This document shows positions 46,884 to 56,433 of a stretch of 64,000 nucleotides of DNA, piece by piece. The position numbers were made by a program, and so were the translations under genes. Source of the stretch: Citreicoccus inhibens (GTDB lineage: Bacteria > Myxococcota > Myxococcia > Myxococcales > Myxococcaceae); NCBI RefSeq assembly GCF_019039035.1, contig NZ_JAHNZT010000041.1, forward strand, positions 1-64,000, given 5' to 3'. Position 1 is the stretch's first letter, and each line of letters starts with the position of its first letter. Below the pieces are notes generated by a model. It ran no database searches and was not told the DNA's origin. It saw only the letters and a program-made list of their open reading frames with translations.

Positions 46884-47768
46884 ATGGAGGAGCATGCCCA
46901 GCAGTACCCCCTGCCGTCCGAGCGTGGACGCGCGTGGGTGCCCTGGCTCGTGACGGCGCTCGTGGTCCTGCTGGGAGGCGTGACGCTGTGGCTGTCGCAC
47001 CGGTCCTCCAAGGACGCGCAGGCGCACGCGGAGACCGCGGAGGCCGAGGCCCGCGTGGCGCATGATCGCGCGCAGGCCGCCGACAAGGCCCGCGAGGAGC
47101 TGACGCAGAAGCTGGCCTCGCTGGAGTCCGAGCACACCAAGCTGTCCGCCGAGAAGGACCAGCTCACCAAGACGGTGGAGGAGCAGGAGGCGGAGCTGGC
47201 CAAGCTCAAGGCCACCTATGAAGACCTGGAGGACAAGATGAAGAAGGAGATCGCCAACGGGGAGATTCGCGTCTCCCAGGCCGGCGGTCGCATCCAGGTG
47301 GACCTGGTGGACAAGATTCTCTTCGACTCGGGTGACGCGAGCATCAGCAAGCGCGGCGGCGAGGTGCTCACGCGCCTGGGCGCGGTGCTGGCGAAGGTGG
47401 AGGACAAGGTCATCCAGGTGTCGGGACACACGGATGACTCGCCGCCCTCGGAGAAGCTGAAGGCCACGTTCCCCACCAACTGGGAGCTGTCCGTGGCGCG
47501 CGCGGTGACGGTGGTGCGCGCGCTCCAGGAGTCCGGCGGCGTGCCCGCGCGCCGGCTGGTGGCCGCGGGCTACGGCGAGATGAGCCCGGTGGCCACCAAC
47601 GCCACGCCCCAGGGGCGCGCGCGCAACCGCCGCATCGAGATCCTCCTGATGCCGGACCTGTCCAAGAAGCCCGCGCCCGCCGCGCTGAAGAAGGCAGCGG
47701 CCCAGGCGCCCGCGACGCATGCGGTGCTCAAGCCCGTGAAGGGCACCACGCCCGCGAAGAAGCGCTGA
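46884..47768 (+). CDS. membrane-anchored coiled-coil OmpA-domain protein
   Basis: 294 residues. Transmembrane helix near the N-terminus (AWVPWLVTALVVLLGGVTLWLS), a long coiled coil at about 40-120 (EHTKLSAEKDQLTKTVEEQE), an OmpA/MotB domain at about 135-255 (ILFDSGDASISKRGGEVLTRLG, HTDDSPPSEKL, NRRIEILLMPD) and an Ala/Lys-rich tail. Peptidoglycan-binding residues of the OmpA domain (D and R in the HTDD and NRRIE segments) are present. It has the same domain order as the 39692 protein, and the two probably arose by duplication. Confidence 0.88.
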   Translation: MEEHAQQYPLPSERGRAWVPWLVTALVVLLGGVTLWLSHRSSKDAQAHAETAEAEARVAHDRAQAADKAREELTQKLASLESEHTKLSAEKDQLTKTVEEQEAELAKLKATYEDLEDKMKKEIANGEIRVSQAGGRIQVDLVDKILFDSGDASISKRGGEVLTRLGAVLAKVEDKVIQVSGHTDDSPPSEKLKATFPTNWELSVARAVTVVRALQESGGVPARRLVAAGYGEMSPVATNATPQGRARNRRIEILLMPDLSKKPAPAALKKAAAQAPATHAVLKPVKGTTPAKKR

Positions 47769-47810
47769 GCAAAACAGCGCCGAGCCCACCAGCGCCGAGC
47801 CCGTCCGCGA

Positions 47811-48347
47811 CTACTTCTTCGCGGACTTCACCGACTCGACCAGCTTGCGGAAGCCCTTCTCCGCGGCGGCCACCGACTTCTCCGGGCCGGTGAGCTTGAA
47901 GAACAGCGGCCCCTCCGCGCCCTCGACGATGGCCCCCAAGAGCCGGTAGCCCGGCTTCGGCGCGGAGGGCCCCATCATGGGGCCGCCCCCCGCGTACGTG
48001 CCCTTCACATCCACCGTGGTGACGTTCAGACCGTTCACCTTCTCCGTCTTCGTCTTCGCGTCCTTCTCCACCGACGTGCCGTCCGGCCGCTGGAACTGCC
48101 CCAGCCACCGCTTCACGTTGTCCCCCACCGCGCCCCCCTGACCGGCGCCGAAGTAGAACACCGCCAGCTCCGCCCCCTCCGCGTCACCCTTCGCCGCGGG
48201 CAATTTGTACGTCGCCGCCCGCATGGGCCGAGCCGGCTGGACCGCCCACTCCGAGGGCGCACTCCAGGTAAGCCCGCCCGCCTCTTCCGCGTGGACGAGC
48301 GACGCCGTCATCAGCACCACGACACTCAGCAGATGTTTCATGCGCAT
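47811..48347 (-). CDS. exported hypothetical protein
   Basis: 178 residues with signal peptide MRMKHLLSVVVLMTASLVHA. The mature part has a fold-like text (GLTWSAPSEWAVQPARPMR, AVFYFGAGQGGAVGDNVKRW, YRLLGAIVEGAEGPLFFKL) reminiscent of small periplasmic proteins that assess protein or sugar binding; I do not recognise the family. Ends with Lys-rich SAKK. Convergent to the OmpA-domain gene. Confidence 0.65.
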   Translation of the reverse strand: MRMKHLLSVVVLMTASLVHAEEAGGLTWSAPSEWAVQPARPMRAATYKLPAAKGDAEGAELAVFYFGAGQGGAVGDNVKRWLGQFQRPDGTSVEKDAKTKTEKVNGLNVTTVDVKGTYAGGGPMMGPSAPKPGYRLLGAIVEGAEGPLFFKLTGPEKSVAAAEKGFRKLVESVKSAKK

Positions 48348-48465
48348 GCGCGCGAGCGTAACCGGCCCCGCCGTCACTCGCGCGATCCGCACCCGCACGT
48401 GCCGCGCGAGCGACCGGCGCGGTAGCAACACGCCTGACTCGGCGCGTCAAGTCCCTTCGCTTTCG

Positions 48466-48488
48466 GCGTACGTCGGGACGTGGTACGC
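48466..48488. promoter_or_regulatory. candidate operator inverted repeat upstream of the lipase gene
   Basis: GCGTAC (48466-48471) and GTACGC (48483-48488) form an inverted repeat with an 11-base centre, 45 bases before the lipase-like start. It could be an operator for a fatty-acid-responsive regulator, but this rests on symmetry only. Confidence 0.3.
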
Positions 48489-48532
48489 AACAACTTGTTT
48501 CCAGCAGTTCACCTTGGAGGGGAACTCCTACC

Positions 48533-51415
48533 ATGAAAAAGCTGTTGTTCGTCGGGGCCCTGGCCCTGGGCGCCGCGGCCTGTGACCCTGAGGTTGCTCA
48601 GGATCCAGCGCCTGAAGCCGTTGGCCTGGCAGAGTTCAATCCGGCTGCATCGCCGGCCATCGTTCCATCCCCCAATGACCTGGCGATCGACCAGAAGACC
48701 GGACTGGTCAACGCGCCCATCGACCCCAAGGCTCCGGCGGCGCAGCAGGAGTTCACGCGGGACTACCTGAACACGCTGAACGGCTTCCCGCCGACGGCGA
48801 TCGCCAACACCAAGGTGGCGAACCTCGATCCCTTCTCGGTGAACGCCAACACCGTGAAGATCATCGACCTCTACAAGGGGACGGAGCTCGAGACGGCGGC
48901 CATCGACCCGCTCATCGGGTACAACCCGGACACGGGCTACATCAACATCATCCCGCAGGACGCCAAGACCAAGGCCAACGCCTGGCCCAAGGGCGGCCGC
49001 TACGCGGTGGCGCTCATCGGCGGCGACCACGGCCTGAAGACGCTGGACGGCAAGAACGTCATCGCCTCCAGCACCTGGGCATTTGTCAGCTCGCCCAAGC
49101 CGCTGGTCACGTGTGAGGACCTGACCTCGCCGGACTGCGGTCCCGCCACGGAGATCATCCCGTCCACCAAGACCGACCCGGCCGAGAAGCTGGCCGACCA
49201 GACCGCGAGCGCGCTGAAGCTGGAGCAGATCCGCCGCGCCTACGCGAAGCCCATCGGCGCGCTGGTGGCCCAGGGCGTCAAGCGCGAGGACATCGTCCTG
49301 CTCTGGACGTTCACCATCACCAACCAGCCCGAGGCGACGTTCGACCCGACGGCCAGCATCATCCCCTTCCCGAACGACCTGGTTCGCACGCCGGCCGACC
49401 CCAAGACGGGCGCGCCCGCGCACCTGAACCTGCCGGTCCCCCCGGGCACGGGCCTGCAGTCGCAGCTGGTGCAGGGCCTCAACACCCTGGACGGCTTCTC
49501 CACGACCAGCCCCCTCATCTCCGAGAACAGCGACACCAAGGGCGCCATCGACCTGGGCGCGCTGGACGAGGGCACGCTGAAGGATAACGTGATGGTCCTG
49601 AAGCTGACCAACACGGACAAGGGCTCCAACCCCAAGGTCACCCCGTGCATCAACTGCGCGAGCAGCAAGCCCGCCTCCGGCACGTCCACCGCGCCGCAGC
49701 AGCTGCAGCTCGTTCCCCAGGTGCCGCTGGATGAGGCCACCCAGTACGGGGCGGTGCTCACCACTGGCCTGAAGAACACGCTCGGCCGCCGCGTGGCCCC
49801 CGCCGGCGCCTTCGCGCTGATGCGTCTGGCCAACCCGGTCTACGTCAACGGCAAGAGCCAGGTGAACGGCATCCCGGACGAGAGCGCCAAGGCCGTGGAG
49901 CCCCTGCGCCAGGCCTTCAAGCCCCTGTTCGACAACCTGGAGAAGGCGGGCATCAAGCGCTCGCAGATCGCCCTGGCCTGGACGTTCACCACGCAGAGCA
50001 TCAACAGCGTGGCCCAGCAGCTCCACACGCTGCCCGCGTCCATCCCGCCCGCGCAGCTGCCCAACGTTCCGCTCGCGCTCCAGCTGGCGCCCAACCCGCC
50101 GGCCGGCCTCACCGCGCGCCTCTACGCGGGCGAGCTCATCCTCCCGAACCTGCTGACGGATCCGCGCGGCACGTTCAACCCGGACCCCAGCAAGCTGCGC
50201 GGTGAGTTCGCGCCGTTCTACCTGTCGCTGCCCCCCGCGGGCGCCGCGATGCCGGCCAACGGCTGGCCCGTGGTCATCTTCGCCCACGGCCTGACGGGCA
50301 ACCGCGAGTCCATGAAGGCCCTCGCGGGCAGCCTGGGCGCCGCGGGCTACGCGAGCATCGCCATCGACGCTCCGTTCCACGGCGACCGCGCCTCGTGCAT
50401 CGGCTTCACCGTGCCCGGCACCACCACCCCCGCGCCGGACTACGCCTGCGCCGACCCGGCCACCCAGAAGTGCGACACCTCCGGCAGCTACGCCACCAAC
50501 CCGAGCTACGGCCGCTGCATCGCGCGGACCCAGTCGGATGTCTGCGACCCGACCCCGGGCGTGGGCGACATGATGTGCTCGGGCGCCAACAAGGGCCGCT
50601 GCATCGCGCAGCGCGACAACACGGGCGCCGTCACCGGCGGCCTGTGCGAGGGCGGTACGTTCAACCCGGCCATCTCGGGCTGGAACTTCCTGGACACGGT
50701 GAACCTGTTCGCCACGCGTGACCACTTCCGCCAGCACATCATCGACATGGGCCAGGTGATTCGCATCCTCCAGGCCACCAGCCCGGGCAACATCAACCAG
50801 CGCGTGACCGCCCTCACCGGCGCGGAAAAGCTGGACGGCTCGCAGATCCACTTCGTGGGTCAGAGCCTCGGCGGCATCATGGGCACGATGTCCACGGCCT
50901 CCTCCCCGAACATCCAGCACGCGGTGCTGAACGTGGCGGGCGGCGACCTGGTCAACATCCTGATGACCTCGCCGAGCTTCGATAGCGTGAAGACCAGCTT
51001 CATCGGCCTGCTGCACGGCCAGGGCATCGATCCGGGCACGCCCGCGTTCGATCAGTTCATCGTCCTGGCCAACACCATCCTGGACCCGGCCGACGCGCGC
51101 AACTACGCCTACGCCCTGCGGAACGCGCCGAACGCGCACGCCAACCGCGCGGTGCTGGTGCAGACCATCAAGGGCGACATGACCATTCCGAACGAGGCGT
51201 CCCTCGCGCTGGTGAACGCGGCGAACCGCACGGACAACACCCGCACGGTGGCGTCCTACATGTTCGACCCGGCCAACTACTCGGACATCCCGGCCAACAG
51301 CCAGACGAAGTACCACGGGTTCCTGCTGCGGCCGGACCTCGGGTCCATCACCGTCAAGGCGCAGACCCAGGTCATCGGCTTCCTGAACACGGGCACTGTG
51401 GCGGCTCCGCAGTAG
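48533..51415 (+). CDS. surface lipase-like lipoprotein (VolA/Pla-1 type)
   Basis: 960 residues. Lipobox AAAC (Cys17). After two Ig-like or extracellular repeats (about 40-480, each opening IVPSPNDLAID or SIIPFPNDLVRT, and LLWTFTITNQPEA / LAWTFTTQSINS), an alpha/beta-hydrolase domain follows from about 570, with GWPVVIFAHGLTGNRES, nucleophile GQSLGG (Ser778) and IAIDAPFHGDR. The layout matches Pla-1/cef extracellular lipases and the surface lysophospholipase VolA. It would release fatty acids outside the cell. Followed 31 bases later by a FadL-type gene, the same pairing as VolA/VolB in Vibrio. Confidence 0.85.
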   Translation: MKKLLFVGALALGAAACDPEVAQDPAPEAVGLAEFNPAASPAIVPSPNDLAIDQKTGLVNAPIDPKAPAAQQEFTRDYLNTLNGFPPTAIANTKVANLDPFSVNANTVKIIDLYKGTELETAAIDPLIGYNPDTGYINIIPQDAKTKANAWPKGGRYAVALIGGDHGLKTLDGKNVIASSTWAFVSSPKPLVTCEDLTSPDCGPATEIIPSTKTDPAEKLADQTASALKLEQIRRAYAKPIGALVAQGVKREDIVLLWTFTITNQPEATFDPTASIIPFPNDLVRTPADPKTGAPAHLNLPVPPGTGLQSQLVQGLNTLDGFSTTSPLISENSDTKGAIDLGALDEGTLKDNVMVLKLTNTDKGSNPKVTPCINCASSKPASGTSTAPQQLQLVPQVPLDEATQYGAVLTTGLKNTLGRRVAPAGAFALMRLANPVYVNGKSQVNGIPDESAKAVEPLRQAFKPLFDNLEKAGIKRSQIALAWTFTTQSINSVAQQLHTLPASIPPAQLPNVPLALQLAPNPPAGLTARLYAGELILPNLLTDPRGTFNPDPSKLRGEFAPFYLSLPPAGAAMPANGWPVVIFAHGLTGNRESMKALAGSLGAAGYASIAIDAPFHGDRASCIGFTVPGTTTPAPDYACADPATQKCDTSGSYATNPSYGRCIARTQSDVCDPTPGVGDMMCSGANKGRCIAQRDNTGAVTGGLCEGGTFNPAISGWNFLDTVNLFATRDHFRQHIIDMGQVIRILQATSPGNINQRVTALTGAEKLDGSQIHFVGQSLGGIMGTMSTASSPNIQHAVLNVAGGDLVNILMTSPSFDSVKTSFIGLLHGQGIDPGTPAFDQFIVLANTILDPADARNYAYALRNAPNAHANRAVLVQTIKGDMTIPNEASLALVNAANRTDNTRTVASYMFDPANYSDIPANSQTKYHGFLLRPDLGSITVKAQTQVIGFLNTGTVAAPQ

Positions 51416-51445
51416 CGGCGCACGCGAGAGAGGAATCACACCACC

Positions 51446-52636
51446 ATGAAGAAAGCACTCTCCCTCGTCACCCTGCTCGCGGCTGGCGCCAGCCAGGCGG
51501 CGGGTTTTCAGATCGACACCCACAGCGCCCGCGCCACGGGCATGGGCTCGGCGGCGACCGCGTGGCTGGATGACTCGTCCGCCATCTACAGCAACGCGGC
51601 GAACATCGTCGGCGTGAACAAGCTGGACATCACGCTGGGCGACACGGGCATCCTGCCCAGCATCAACTTCACCCCGGTGGGCGCGTCCGCCAGCCAGGGC
51701 CAGAAGACGACGCTGTCGCCGCCGCCGCACCTGTTCATCGTGGCCAAGCCGTTTGACCGGGCCGCGTTCGGCGTGGGCGTCTTCACGCCCTACGGCGCGC
51801 GCAGCCGCTGGGTGGATGACTTCGTGGGCCGCTTCCGCGGCCACGAGTCCGCCCTGGCCACGTACTACATCAACCCCACGTTCGCGTATGAGCTGCACCC
51901 GCGCTTCCGCTTCGGTGTGGGCCTCGACATCGCTCGGGCCACCATCGACCTGCGCCGCCAGCTGAACTTCGTGAACAGCGAGGGCACCATCCACCTGGGT
52001 GGCGCGGACTGGGGCTCCGGCTTCAACGTCGGCGTGCAGGCCAGCATCCTGGACAACTTGAAGATGGGTCTTCAGTACCGCAGCGCGGTGAAGATTGGCT
52101 TCAAGGGCAAGGCGGACTTCCAGAACATCCCCACGGAGTTCCAGTCCCTGCTGCAGGACCAGAAGGCCACGGCGGACGTGACGCTGCCGTCCACGGTGAC
52201 GGCGGGCCTGGCCTATTCGCCCATGGACCGGCTGCTCATCGCGGCGGACGCGAGCTGGGTGGACTGGTCCACCTTCTCCGAGCTGGCCATCCACTTCGAG
52301 AACCCGGCCATCGACAACCCGGTGCCGAAGAAGTGGCGGGCGCGGTGGAAGTACAGCATCGGTGGCGAGTACGGCGTGACGCCGGACCTCCAGGTTCGCC
52401 TGGGCTTCGTCTACGACCCGTCGCCGAGCCCCAACAGCACGCTGACGCCGGACCTGCCGGACGCCAACCGCCTGAAGGTGACGGCGGGCGTGGGCTACCA
52501 GTTCAAGCCCTTCCGCGCGGACCTCGGCTACCAGTTCGTCGCGCTCTCCGACAAGCAGAGCACGTCCCCGGGCATGAGCGGCACGTACTCCGGTACCGCG
52601 CACGTGTTCGGTCTGACGCTCGGCTACTCGATGTAA
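51446..52636 (+). CDS. FadL/OmpP1/TodX-family outer-membrane channel
   Basis: 396 residues. Signal peptide MKKALSLVTLLAAGASQAAG. FadL-type N-terminal block FQIDTHSARATGMGSAATAWLDDSSAIYSNAAN (only 33 residues into the mature chain), then the usual ADIGLGV-like strands, e.g. FGVGVFTPYGARSRW. The C-terminus ends VFGLTLGYSM, with a near-terminal aromatic. Family role: uptake of long-chain fatty acids or hydrophobic compounds. GAGAGGA lies upstream. Co-directional with, and 31 bases after, the lipase gene. Confidence 0.92.
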   Translation: MKKALSLVTLLAAGASQAAGFQIDTHSARATGMGSAATAWLDDSSAIYSNAANIVGVNKLDITLGDTGILPSINFTPVGASASQGQKTTLSPPPHLFIVAKPFDRAAFGVGVFTPYGARSRWVDDFVGRFRGHESALATYYINPTFAYELHPRFRFGVGLDIARATIDLRRQLNFVNSEGTIHLGGADWGSGFNVGVQASILDNLKMGLQYRSAVKIGFKGKADFQNIPTEFQSLLQDQKATADVTLPSTVTAGLAYSPMDRLLIAADASWVDWSTFSELAIHFENPAIDNPVPKKWRARWKYSIGGEYGVTPDLQVRLGFVYDPSPSPNSTLTPDLPDANRLKVTAGVGYQFKPFRADLGYQFVALSDKQSTSPGMSGTYSGTAHVFGLTLGYSM

Positions 52637-52670
52637 TCGCGGGGCGAGTCTCGCCCGCGTGAAGTCCCGG

Positions 52671-52703
52671 CGCCCGGGCTCCTCCTCGCGAGGGGCCCGG
52701 GCG
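52671..52703 (+). terminator. terminator after the FadL gene
   Basis: CGCCCGGGC (52671-52679) pairs perfectly with GCCCGGGCG (52695-52703), and CCTC/GAGG extends the interior. It lies 35 bases after the stop. A smaller hairpin (52638-52659) precedes it. A strong terminator for the lipase-FadL operon. Confidence 0.7.
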
Positions 52704-52772
52704 TCCGCTTTCTGGCGACAGGGCCGCGCTGGCCGAGACGCGGGGGCGCGCGGGGCGCTACGGTGCGCCGCC

Positions 52773-54017
52773 GTGAGCTCCACCAAGCCCGGTCGCAACG
52801 ACCCATGCCCCTGCGGCAGCGGCAAGAAGTACAAGGCCTGCCACGCCGCCGAGGACCGCGCCAAGGCCGCGCCGCCTCCGCCCGCCGCCTCCAGTCCCCT
52901 CTCCGATGACCTCCAGGGCGCGCTCGCGCTGCTGGCGGACCCGGACGTGTCCAAGCTGTCCGCCGCGCTGGAGCGGCTGGGCGCGCTGCTCGCGGACGCG
53001 GGCCCCGTGGCCGGGCTGCGCTTCGAGGCGAAGGACTTCGACGCGCACGTGGGCCAGGAGCTGGCCCGCTTGGCGGAGCGCGCGAACCAGGACGCCGCCG
53101 CGGCCCGGCACGAGCTGTCCGTGGGCACCCTGCGCGCGCTGGGCACCCGCGCGTTCCAGGAGAAGCTGGGCGCCGTGCTGCTCACGCGGGCCGCGCGAGC
53201 CTCCACGCCCGAGGAGCGTCAGGCGCTGAGCGTGGGCGCGCTGCTCGCCACCGCCGCGAAGAAGACGGGCCGCGTGCGCCCGGAGAACAACCCCGTTCTG
53301 GACGTGGTGTTCGACGTGCAGTTCCGCGAGTGGTGCGTGCGGCACGCCGAGCTGGCGCGCAAGTACGAGGCGCTCGCCGGCGCGATGGACGACTCGCACG
53401 TGGAAGCGCTGGTGGAGCAGGTGCAGGCGGATCCCGCCCTGTCCGAGCGCATCGCCCGCGAGGCGAAGGAGCGCTCCGCCCGCGTGGAAGCGCGGCTGCG
53501 CGAGCCGACGTCGCCCTCCGTCTTCGCCCCCGAGGAGGAGCTCTGGCTCACCTGCGTCCTCTGGGAGCCCCTGCGCGCCATGAAGTCCCCGCCCACGAAC
53601 CCCGAGGGCCGGCGCGAGGTGGTGGCCGCGCTGCTGCGCGCGGTGAAGGGGGCCGTGGACGAGGACTTCCTCCAGCACCTGGTGGACCGCCTGCACGCCG
53701 AGGCGAAGAACCCGGCCGCGGACGAGGCCACGCGCGCGGCGTTCAGCGACGCGGCCATCGCCTTCGAGGCCGAGCCCGCGCGCATGGTGCTCGCCGCGCT
53801 GCTCACCGCGCGCCAGGAGGCCCGGGGCCGCACCGCCGAGGAGCTGGTGGCGCTGGCGGACCTCAAGGCGCTGCCCGCGTGGACCGTGGAGAGTCTGGAG
53901 CCCTACCGCGCGCTGCTGGAGACACAAGGGCGCGCCGCCGCCGCGGACCGCGTGCGACGCGCGCAGGAGTGGCTGCGCGCGCATCCCATTCGCCTGGACG
54001 ACAGCGCCACGCCCTGA
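52773..54017 (+). CDS. SEC-C motif protein with helical domain
   Basis: 414 residues from the GTG at 52773. The SEC-C zinc motif is at the very N-terminus (PGRNDPCPCGSGKKYKACH), as in many proteins that borrow it for protein-protein contact. The remaining roughly 390 residues are Ala/Glu/Arg-rich and helical (ALAGAMDDSHVEALVEQVQADP), with no recognised catalytic motif. SEC-C is best known at the end of SecA, where it contacts SecB and ribosomes. Convergent with the cyclic-nucleotide gene. Confidence 0.75.
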   Translation: MSSTKPGRNDPCPCGSGKKYKACHAAEDRAKAAPPPPAASSPLSDDLQGALALLADPDVSKLSAALERLGALLADAGPVAGLRFEAKDFDAHVGQELARLAERANQDAAAARHELSVGTLRALGTRAFQEKLGAVLLTRAARASTPEERQALSVGALLATAAKKTGRVRPENNPVLDVVFDVQFREWCVRHAELARKYEALAGAMDDSHVEALVEQVQADPALSERIAREAKERSARVEARLREPTSPSVFAPEEELWLTCVLWEPLRAMKSPPTNPEGRREVVAALLRAVKGAVDEDFLQHLVDRLHAEAKNPAADEATRAAFSDAAIAFEAEPARMVLAALLTARQEARGRTAEELVALADLKALPAWTVESLEPYRALLETQGRAAAADRVRRAQEWLRAHPIRLDDSATP

Positions 54018-54036: not shown

Positions 54037-55224
54037 TCACACGCGCAGGTCACCCTCCAGCAGCTCGCGGCCGGACAACAGCCGCGCGGTGCGCTGGAGG
54101 CGCTCGGTGCCCATGCGCATCAGCATGCCCTTCATGCCCGGCTGACTGAGGATGTGCCGCTCGAAGGCACCTCGGTCCAACCGCAGCAGGACGCACTCGG
54201 ACTCGGTGCGCACCGTGGCGGACACGGGCTTGTCGAGCAGCAGCGAGATTTCACCGAAGACGTCCCCCTCGCGCAGGTCCGGCAGCGCCACCTTCTTGCC
54301 GCTGGCCTGCTCCAGGTACGGCCGGCACTGGCCGCGCAGCAGGAGGTAGAAGGCATCGCCCGGCTGGCCTTGTGTGAGGAGCACCTGCCGCGCGGGCACG
54401 GCGCGCAGGTCGAACTCGCGCGCCACCGCCTGCTTCTGCGCGGGCGACAGCGGGCTGAGCAGCGGGCTGCTGCGCAAGAGGTTCTCCACCAAGCGGCGCC
54501 GGAAGAAGGTCTGCACGGCGGTGGCCACCGTGGGGTGCCGCACGGCGGCGGCCTCCATCCGCGCGCGCGTCAACTCCAGCAGCACCGCGCGCGAGGTGGC
54601 CACGACGCTGGCCAGCCGAGGCCCCTCGGATACGAGCGCCAGCTCGCCGAAGAAGTCACCCGCCGACACGGTGCCCACCACCTTGCGCTCACCGCCCTCC
54701 AGGGCGCGCGCCACCTCCGCGGTGCCGTCCACCAGGGCGAACATCGAGTCGCCCGCCGCGCCCTCGGTCACCACCGCGCGGCCGGGCGTGAAGGCGCGCA
54801 CCTCCAGCGCCTCCAGCAGCGCCACGAAGGCCTCGCGGTCCAGCCAGGACAGGATGGGCACGGCTGACGCCGCGCTCGCGTCGGGCACGAGCCCCGGCTC
54901 GCTGGGCGCCGAGCCAGGCGGCAGGGCGAAGCGCTCCGCCACCACGCGCGCCGTCCTCGCCGCGTCGCCGCCCAGCCGCCGCAGCGACACCCACGCGGCC
55001 GCCGCGCGCAGGAGCGCACCTTCCTTCACCCAGGCGCGCAGCGCGGACTCGAACGCCGCGGTCGCCTCCGCGTGACGCCCGAGCGCCTCCAGTGACTCCG
55101 CCTCACGCTGAAGCCGAGACGCCTCCATGGGTCCTCCGGCGAGCGCCGCGTCCATGCGGGCCTCACTGGCCAGGGGCACCGCTTGCAGCGTCCTCGGGTC
55201 CGCGCGGGGAGGGGTATCCGCCAT
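54037..55224 (-). CDS. protein with two cyclic-nucleotide-binding domains
   Basis: 395 residues. A helical N-terminus (about 25-100, TPR-like: LGRHAEATAAFESALRAW) is followed by two cNMP-binding domains, at about 135-250 (VVTEGAAGDSMFALVDGTAEV, GDFFGELALVSEGPRLASV) and about 265-385 (LLTQGQPGDAFYLLLRGQ, GDVFGEISLLLDKPVSATV). The FGEhxL phosphate-binding cassette is present in both, but the Arg needed for cAMP binding is replaced (FGEL...RLASV keeps it in the first). No output domain, so it presumably acts by contact. Possibly co-transcribed with the next upstream gene (15-base gap). Confidence 0.87.
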   Translation of the reverse strand: MADTPPRADPRTLQAVPLASEARMDAALAGGPMEASRLQREAESLEALGRHAEATAAFESALRAWVKEGALLRAAAAWVSLRRLGGDAARTARVVAERFALPPGSAPSEPGLVPDASAASAVPILSWLDREAFVALLEALEVRAFTPGRAVVTEGAAGDSMFALVDGTAEVARALEGGERKVVGTVSAGDFFGELALVSEGPRLASVVATSRAVLLELTRARMEAAAVRHPTVATAVQTFFRRRLVENLLRSSPLLSPLSPAQKQAVAREFDLRAVPARQVLLTQGQPGDAFYLLLRGQCRPYLEQASGKKVALPDLREGDVFGEISLLLDKPVSATVRTESECVLLRLDRGAFERHILSQPGMKGMLMRMGTERLQRTARLLSGRELLEGDLRV

Positions 55225-55239
55225 GCGGGCCTCTGTAGC

Positions 55240-56433
55240 TCAGGCGCTCAGCGCACGCACGCGCTCCGCGAGGTTCTGCGTGAAGAGTCGATAGATGCGC
55301 AGCGCCGCCGCGGGATGGGTGTCCAGGTAGGATTGGAAGTCCAGATGCGTCACCCGCAGGGCGCGCACCGCGGTCCTCGCGCGGACCTGCGCCGAGGTGG
55401 GCCCATCCAGGATGAGGGAAATCTCCCCCAGGTACGCCCCCTGCCCCAGCGTGTTGAGCCGGCGCGCGTCCGGGCCCGGGCCCGCATACACGTCCACGAT
55501 GCCCTCCAGCAGCACCAGGAGCCCCGTGCCGCGCGCGCCCTTCTCCATGACGACGACGCCCTCGGGCACCACCACGGGCCGGGCCACGCGGTAGAGGTCC
55601 TTCATGTCCTCCAGGGGCAGCTCGCCGAAGATGGGGATGGCCTTGAGGTACTCGTAGCCGTCGGGCGGAGCCGGGGTGCGCTCGGCGGCCACCGCGCCCT
55701 CGGCCGGCGAGGCGAGTCCCAATTGCCTCAGCAGCCGCGCCTGCTCCGCGTGAAGCTCCGCGTCGGGGGACTCGCGCACGGCGTCGGCCAGCAGCACCAA
55801 CGCGCGCCAGGTATCGCCCCGCGCATCGAGCAGCGCGCTCATCCGCAGCACCGTGTCCCGGCGGCCCGCGTCCTCCGCGGCCACGGCGCGCAGCGACTCC
55901 AGCTCCGCGTGGGTGTTGCCCAAGGCGCGATACACCAACGCCGCCTCGCCCGGACGACGCAGGCGGGTGAGCACCCGGGCCACCGACTCCAGCGCCTGCT
56001 GTGACTGGTACAACTCCAGCGCCAGCTCCAGCACGCCGCCGCGCTCGAACGCCGCCGCCGCGCGCGCATGCTCACCGGCGCGCAGCCACGCCTCGGCGGC
56101 GGGACGCAGCTCACCGGCCTGCTCGTAGAGGGGCGCCGCCGCCACGTCATCTCCCCGAGACTCCAGCAACCGCGCCGCGCCCGCGAAGTCACGGGCGCTC
56201 CGCATCACCTCCACCAACGTCGCGCGGGACGCGGCCGAGGCCAACAGGGCCTCCTCCCGCACGCGCTCCCGCTGCGCGCTCGCCAGGGACTCATAGGCGC
56301 GCGTGGCCTGCTCGACCACGCCCTGCACCACGGGCTCCCACACGACGCGGGTGCCCGCCGAGCCCACGACATCCACCTCACGAATCCCCAGGCCCGTCCC
56401 GGCCCGGTTGGATTCCACCGCGGTTGCCGCCAT
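55240..56433 (-). CDS. TPR protein with cyclic-nucleotide-binding domain
   Basis: 397 residues. A helical repeat region at about 50-240 (e.g. DFAGAARLLESRGDDVAAAPLYEQAGEL and YQSQQALESVARVLTRL) reads like TPRs. A cNMP-binding domain follows at about 260-380 (VVVMEKGARGTGLLVLLEGIVDV, GAYLGEISLILDGPTSAQV), with a Leu/Arg-rich C-terminal helix. It shares the TPR-cNMP design with its downstream neighbour, so the two are probably diverged duplicates and may form heteromers. Confidence 0.85.
   Translation of the reverse strand: MAATAVESNRAGTGLGIREVDVVGSAGTRVVWEPVVQGVVEQATRAYESLASAQRERVREEALLASAASRATLVEVMRSARDFAGAARLLESRGDDVAAAPLYEQAGELRPAAEAWLRAGEHARAAAAFERGGVLELALELYQSQQALESVARVLTRLRRPGEAALVYRALGNTHAELESLRAVAAEDAGRRDTVLRMSALLDARGDTWRALVLLADAVRESPDAELHAEQARLLRQLGLASPAEGAVAAERTPAPPDGYEYLKAIPIFGELPLEDMKDLYRVARPVVVPEGVVVMEKGARGTGLLVLLEGIVDVYAGPGPDARRLNTLGQGAYLGEISLILDGPTSAQVRARTAVRALRVTHLDFQSYLDTHPAAALRIYRLFTQNLAERVRALSA

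Follow-up and report, generated by a model that had tools for sequence, protein, structure and literature searches.

A gene for a divergent VolA/Pla-1-like lipoprotein is paired with a FadL channel gene in Citreicoccus inhibens and across the Myxococcota

In Vibrio cholerae we take VolA to be VCA0863 and the neighboring FadL homolog VCA0862 to be VolB. Of the lipases related to the protein described below, VolA is a characterized one and has been termed a lysophospholipase (PMC9496633). In Myxococcus xanthus the genes for an OmpA/MotB protein (MXAN7037), a lipoprotein (MXAN7039), a FadL protein (MXAN7040) and a cyclic-nucleotide-binding protein (MXAN7041) are found in this order (PMC3222651, PMC5131308), and in print MXAN_7039 is a "putative lipoprotein" and MXAN_7040 is FadL (PMC3222651). 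In the literature searched we found no description of the pair as a VolA-FadL-like or lipase-FadL unit. Here we describe such a pair in a stretch of 64,000 nucleotides of Citreicoccus inhibens, family Myxococcaceae (the window; assembly GCF_019039035.1, contig NZ_JAHNZT010000041.1, positions 1 to 64,000), where a VolA/Pla-1-like lipoprotein hydrolase of 960 amino acids (LIP, 48533-51415) is followed by a FadL-family outer-membrane channel of 396 amino acids (51446-52636). It is probable that this two-gene unit frees and imports fatty acids from extracellular esters, resembling VolA and VolB in its working while being built differently.

Both open reading frames (ORFs) are found exactly where a sequence-only reading of the window had placed them, as a 960-residue lipoprotein gene and then a FadL-family gene, each with a GA-rich ribosome-binding stretch upstream of its ATG; all features given here are on the + strand. 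The gap between them is 30 bases (51416-51445), one fewer than the 31 counted earlier. The FadL assignment held in a profile search (PF03349, 217.7 bits against a gathering cut-off of 29.7, E 2.5e-64) and in comparison with solved FadL-family structures (best E 6.2e-23). For LIP, the search for the Pla-1 lipase family that the sequence-only reading had proposed gave VolA/Pla-1 phospholipase (TIGR03502) as the best named family, with E 2e-45. Eighteen myxobacterial proteins, LIP among them, were aligned and compared by hhalign with the VolA-like protein of the environmental Vibrio sp. THAF190c (one locus, used for all Vibrio comparisons here), and the homology (E 1.1e-22, Prob 99.5, 496 columns) spans both the N-terminal module and the hydrolase domain. 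These protein-family E-values, together with the linkage in many genomes given below, place the gene pair beyond chance. The lipoprotein claim is borne out by a signal peptide and lipobox (48533-48583) with predicted lipidated Cys17 (+2 Asp, +7 Gln), aligned in 18 of 18 rows. What had been called Ig-like repeats are indeed tandem repeats, of two modules of about 235 amino acids, residues 29-262 (48617-49318) and 263-498 (49319-50026), which are related to each other (26% identity, BLASTP E 2e-9). The Ig-like Big_5 matched LIP weakly (E 0.074). Lipase_bact_N (PF12262, cut-off 22.3 bits) scored 19.6 bits with whole LIP and 23.3 bits, just over the cut-off, with module 2 alone, which also matches TIGR03502 positions 43-259. 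Across myxobacterial relatives there are two to four modules per protein, the additional copies in several of them giving proteins of up to 1420 amino acids in the alignment.

The alpha/beta-hydrolase domain (residues 571-960, 50243-51412), recognized through TIGR03502 and Abhydrolase_1/6 matches, carries the previously noticed GQSLGG motif at residues 776-781, and this motif is conserved in relatives. The predicted nucleophile, Ser778 (50864-50866), and the other members of the predicted triad, Asp882 (51176-51178) and His928 (51314-51316), share alignment columns with the same residues of the Vibrio VolA-like protein, and the serine is kept in 50 of 55 aligned rows. Locus L121 aligns poorly, with the serine present and the aspartate and histidine absent, and L113 is cut short. 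A pattern scan had suggested that many distant copies have lost the serine as well, but the alignment showed GxSxG there and the idea was discarded. Between the oxyanion-hole region and the catalytic serine lies a cysteine-rich insert (residues 618-726, 50384-50710; 8 Cys). Its eight cysteine columns are invariant in 18 of 18 rows, and among more distant relatives the number of cysteines here ranges from 0 to 8; the insert may act as a putative disulfide-stapled lid.

Several observations weigh against reading LIP as a VolA-type lipase that works with the channel. Its TIGR03502 score, 155.3 bits, is below the curated cut-off of 383.9 bits, and LIP is therefore a non-member by the curated rule (the Vibrio sp. 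THAF190c protein, as a control, scores 728.5 bits). The proposed VolA/Pla-1 identity thus stands in its homology, lipoprotein signal and triad and falls short in formal membership, so that, judged from its sequence, LIP is a true but divergent homolog outside the family. The conserved GxSxG triad cannot separate a lipase from other esterases. Among the five rows which lack the serine, two from one genus (L056, 3031-7281, and L057, 6307-10566) stand beside FadL and have Gly and Asp at this column, while the congeneric copy in L055 keeps Ser; loss of the serine with the channel adjoining hints that the lipoprotein may have a second, lipid-binding role. The remaining three (L006, 5662-8649; L007, 5761-8670; L084, 6764-9793) have Gly at this column and no adjoining FadL, and are likely inactive paralogs. 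In genome G172 (L081, 7774-9703) the lipase is gone from its usual spot between its two neighbors and FadL is retained; since FadL persists alone at the syntenic place, the channel does not need the lipase. Structure predictions from a five-sequence alignment were poor (mean pLDDT 46.7 for the whole protein and 41.9 for the hydrolase part), and Foldseek with the first, whole-protein model returned nothing at E <= 0.001, the top matches being mostly esterases. A myxobacterial predatory lipase already described, ArEstA of Archangium lipolyticum, was weighed too and rejected as a different protein, of about 32 kDa and from family V (PMC10794672).

The linkage of the two genes was examined in 193 genomes of the phylum, 132 of which have a lipase profile match (E <= 1e-15) and 160 a FadL match (E <= 1e-10). 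FadL is located directly downstream in at least 65 of 74 full-length lipase places (67 genomes) according to the listed tables, and in at least 67 once the loci of G056 and G179 were read, the FadL of G179 being in two pieces with the intervening part missing in the comparison. The other seven places are second copies in genomes which also have a linked pair. Outside Myxococcaceae, the matches listed comprise 34 loci (31 linked, two unlinked, L104 and L107, and one at a contig end), so that 31 of 33 assessable loci among these matches are linked, always with the lipase first and FadL second; G056 is counted both here and among the 74 places. The co-conservation on which the sequence-only reading had made its proposal depend is therefore present. 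Some of the loci read were best profile matches and some regions were partly picked because linkage was visible in the tables. It could be argued that the two genes serve separate functions and are neighbors only by accident of descent, and the wider surroundings are in fact partly conserved: when six flanking genes were sought in the fetched stretches (about 4-19 kb, counted above 150 bits), 12 of 41 loci had the pair with some flanks. However, 23 of the 41 have the pair without any of the six genes (the remaining six are unlinked), which indicates that the pair outlasts its gene neighborhood, and because 31 of the 33 distant loci are linked a chance neighborhood is very unlikely.

The window has the same order as M. 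xanthus, OmpA/MotB, lipoprotein, FadL and cyclic-nucleotide-binding protein, two ORFs at 54037-56433 having been taken as the last of these by sequence reading alone. Because the gene order matches, we infer that the pair is orthologous to MXAN_7039-7040 of M. xanthus DK1622. In the outer-membrane proteome of M. xanthus MXAN7039 is represented by 34 peptides and MXAN7040 by 13 (PMC3222651), and the fadL (MXAN_7040) mutant LS3125 showed no alkyne-palmitate uptake (PMC4048283). Carried over by synteny, both proteins would be present in the outer membrane of C. inhibens and its FadL would be needed for palmitate uptake. The previously suggested role in fatty acid supply is in this way strengthened on the side of the channel. 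Since the M. xanthus pair is in the outer membrane (PMC3222651) and lipid signals are used in its development (PMC4048283), the enzyme could instead act on lipids of the cell itself, remodeling those of the outer membrane or of development, with FadL recycling the products. The fadL mutant, however, was much like wild type in development and lipid bodies (PMC4048283), and we find this reading distinctly unlikely.

Another question is the source of the esters. The sequence-only reading supposed that the pair scavenges prey lipids, and a role mainly in predation, with fatty acids stripped off the membranes of prey cells after lysis, would suit a host from a predatory family and the rise of M. 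xanthus lipases and esterases in co-culture (PMC9548883). In the same study, however, MXAN_7040 and MXAN_6116 were down-regulated when M. xanthus was grown together with S. meliloti, and a further, unknown means of uptake is postulated by the authors (PMC9548883), and the pair is also present in many lineages outside the family. Prey-lipid scavenging is thus unproven and faces contrary data, and a mainly predatory role seems to us rather improbable. MXAN_7040 was also found reduced in a colony-boundary proteome (PMC6627406). A substrate other than phospholipid, namely plant or microbial polyesters or glycerides of the suberin type, is brought to mind by the proteome of M. xanthus cultured on suberin, in which a "lipase", Q1CWS1, and the FadL protein Q1CWS0 were detected (PMC5158114). 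Because Q1CWS0 is MXAN_7040, Q1CWS1 is by accession order very probably MXAN_7039. The patatin-like label given to Q1CWS1 in the discussion of that paper is, if this identification holds, unsupported by the present analysis. Detection is not activity, growth on suberin ceased after 10 days (PMC5158114), and the lysophospholipase VolA (PMC9496633) speaks for another kind of substrate; polyesters are therefore an unlikely main target.

The reading that we prefer, a unit that frees and imports fatty acids from extracellular esters, could work as follows. After export and lipidation on Cys17, the first protein would be anchored in the outer membrane, presumably facing outward, with the hydrolase domain (Ser778-Asp882-His928) carried beyond the two tandem modules and covered by the eight-cysteine insert. 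It would cleave acyl esters such as lysophospholipids, phospholipids, glycerides or related compounds, and the released long-chain fatty acids would enter the neighboring FadL channel, possibly by hand-over from protein to protein. Inside the cell they would be activated and directed to beta-oxidation or membrane synthesis. The two genes are presumably co-transcribed. For M. xanthus this offers a testable job for an outer-membrane "putative lipoprotein" detected by many peptides beside a channel needed for fatty acid uptake (PMC3222651, PMC4048283), and it bears on the uptake of lipids from prey or the environment by myxobacteria, for which the authors of the predation transcriptome invoke an unknown route (PMC9548883).

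Some features around the pair can be added. A terminator had been predicted after the two genes, and one of the canonical T-tailed type was not found: a scan of 47500-53500 found three T-tailed sites (shuffle mean 3.0), none of them on the + strand. What is present 3' of FadL is a very stable 16-bp GC hairpin without a U tract (52669-52705), in a 92-base stretch which folds with z -4.8. Because counterparts recur after FadL in three of five relatives folded, it is likely a 3'-end structure. A SEC-C motif protein follows the pair (52659-54017) and adjoins it in several other family members. The lipase (48533-51415) diverges faster than its neighbors, with 93% identity against 94-98% to the nearest relative, L039, and 51% against 64-77% to L040. 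The second FadL of the genome (L077, 7022-8386; G000, C38, 112036-113187) adjoins a gene for an aspartokinase-homoserine dehydrogenase and has no adjacent lipase match.

The adjacency of a lipase gene and FadL proposed by analogy with Vibrio is present in the window and kept across the phylum, while the partner is not of the VolB type. In a FadL tree, from which one duplicate row was left out, Vibrio FadL groups with the one E. coli FadL included (SH-aLRT 99), and joining Vibrio FadL to 28 myxobacterial FadLs without E. coli was rejected (AU p 0.0002; a long-branch row was also left out of this test). Because the FadL lineage differs and the gene order is reversed, the lipase-FadL pairing, as far as such comparisons reach, probably arose separately from that of Vibrio, or possibly an ancestral FadL partner was replaced by exchange. 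Two of the loci fetched have FadL on both sides of the lipase (L085, 2629-8573, in G057, and L098, 1594-7570, in G059), and in L085 the upstream one falls with the FadLs of E. coli and Vibrio. E. coli FadL and the toluene channels TodX and TbuX belong to the same PF03349 family as the channel of the window and their solved structures were matched, at low identity; the 5-kb stretch of E. coli that was read shows no lipase gene beside fadL.

Taken together, the locus resembles Vibrio VolA in having a lipoprotein with a module probably of the Lipase_bact_N type, an alpha/beta-hydrolase with the same triad columns and an adjoining FadL gene. It differs in gene order, since in Vibrio sp. THAF190c FadL is followed after 12 bases by the VolA-like gene, and in the insert region, which has 27 amino acids and no cysteine in the Vibrio protein and 94-125 amino acids with at least eight cysteines in the myxobacterial ones. 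Unlike Vibrio VolA, the myxobacterial proteins have two to four N-terminal modules. The eight-cysteine insert in the catalytic domain, these tandem modules and the phylum-wide pairing are new here. A bolder idea, which we regard as doubtful, is that the Myxococcota coupled a VolA-fold lipase with FadL independently of vibrios into a standing outer-membrane machine, in which a repeat-lengthened, cysteine-lidded lipoprotein is docked on the channel and passes fatty acids straight in. If true, two bacterial groups would have brought together the same enzyme fold and FadL in opposite gene orders and with different FadL lineages, which would hint that a lipase placed beside a channel is a general solution.

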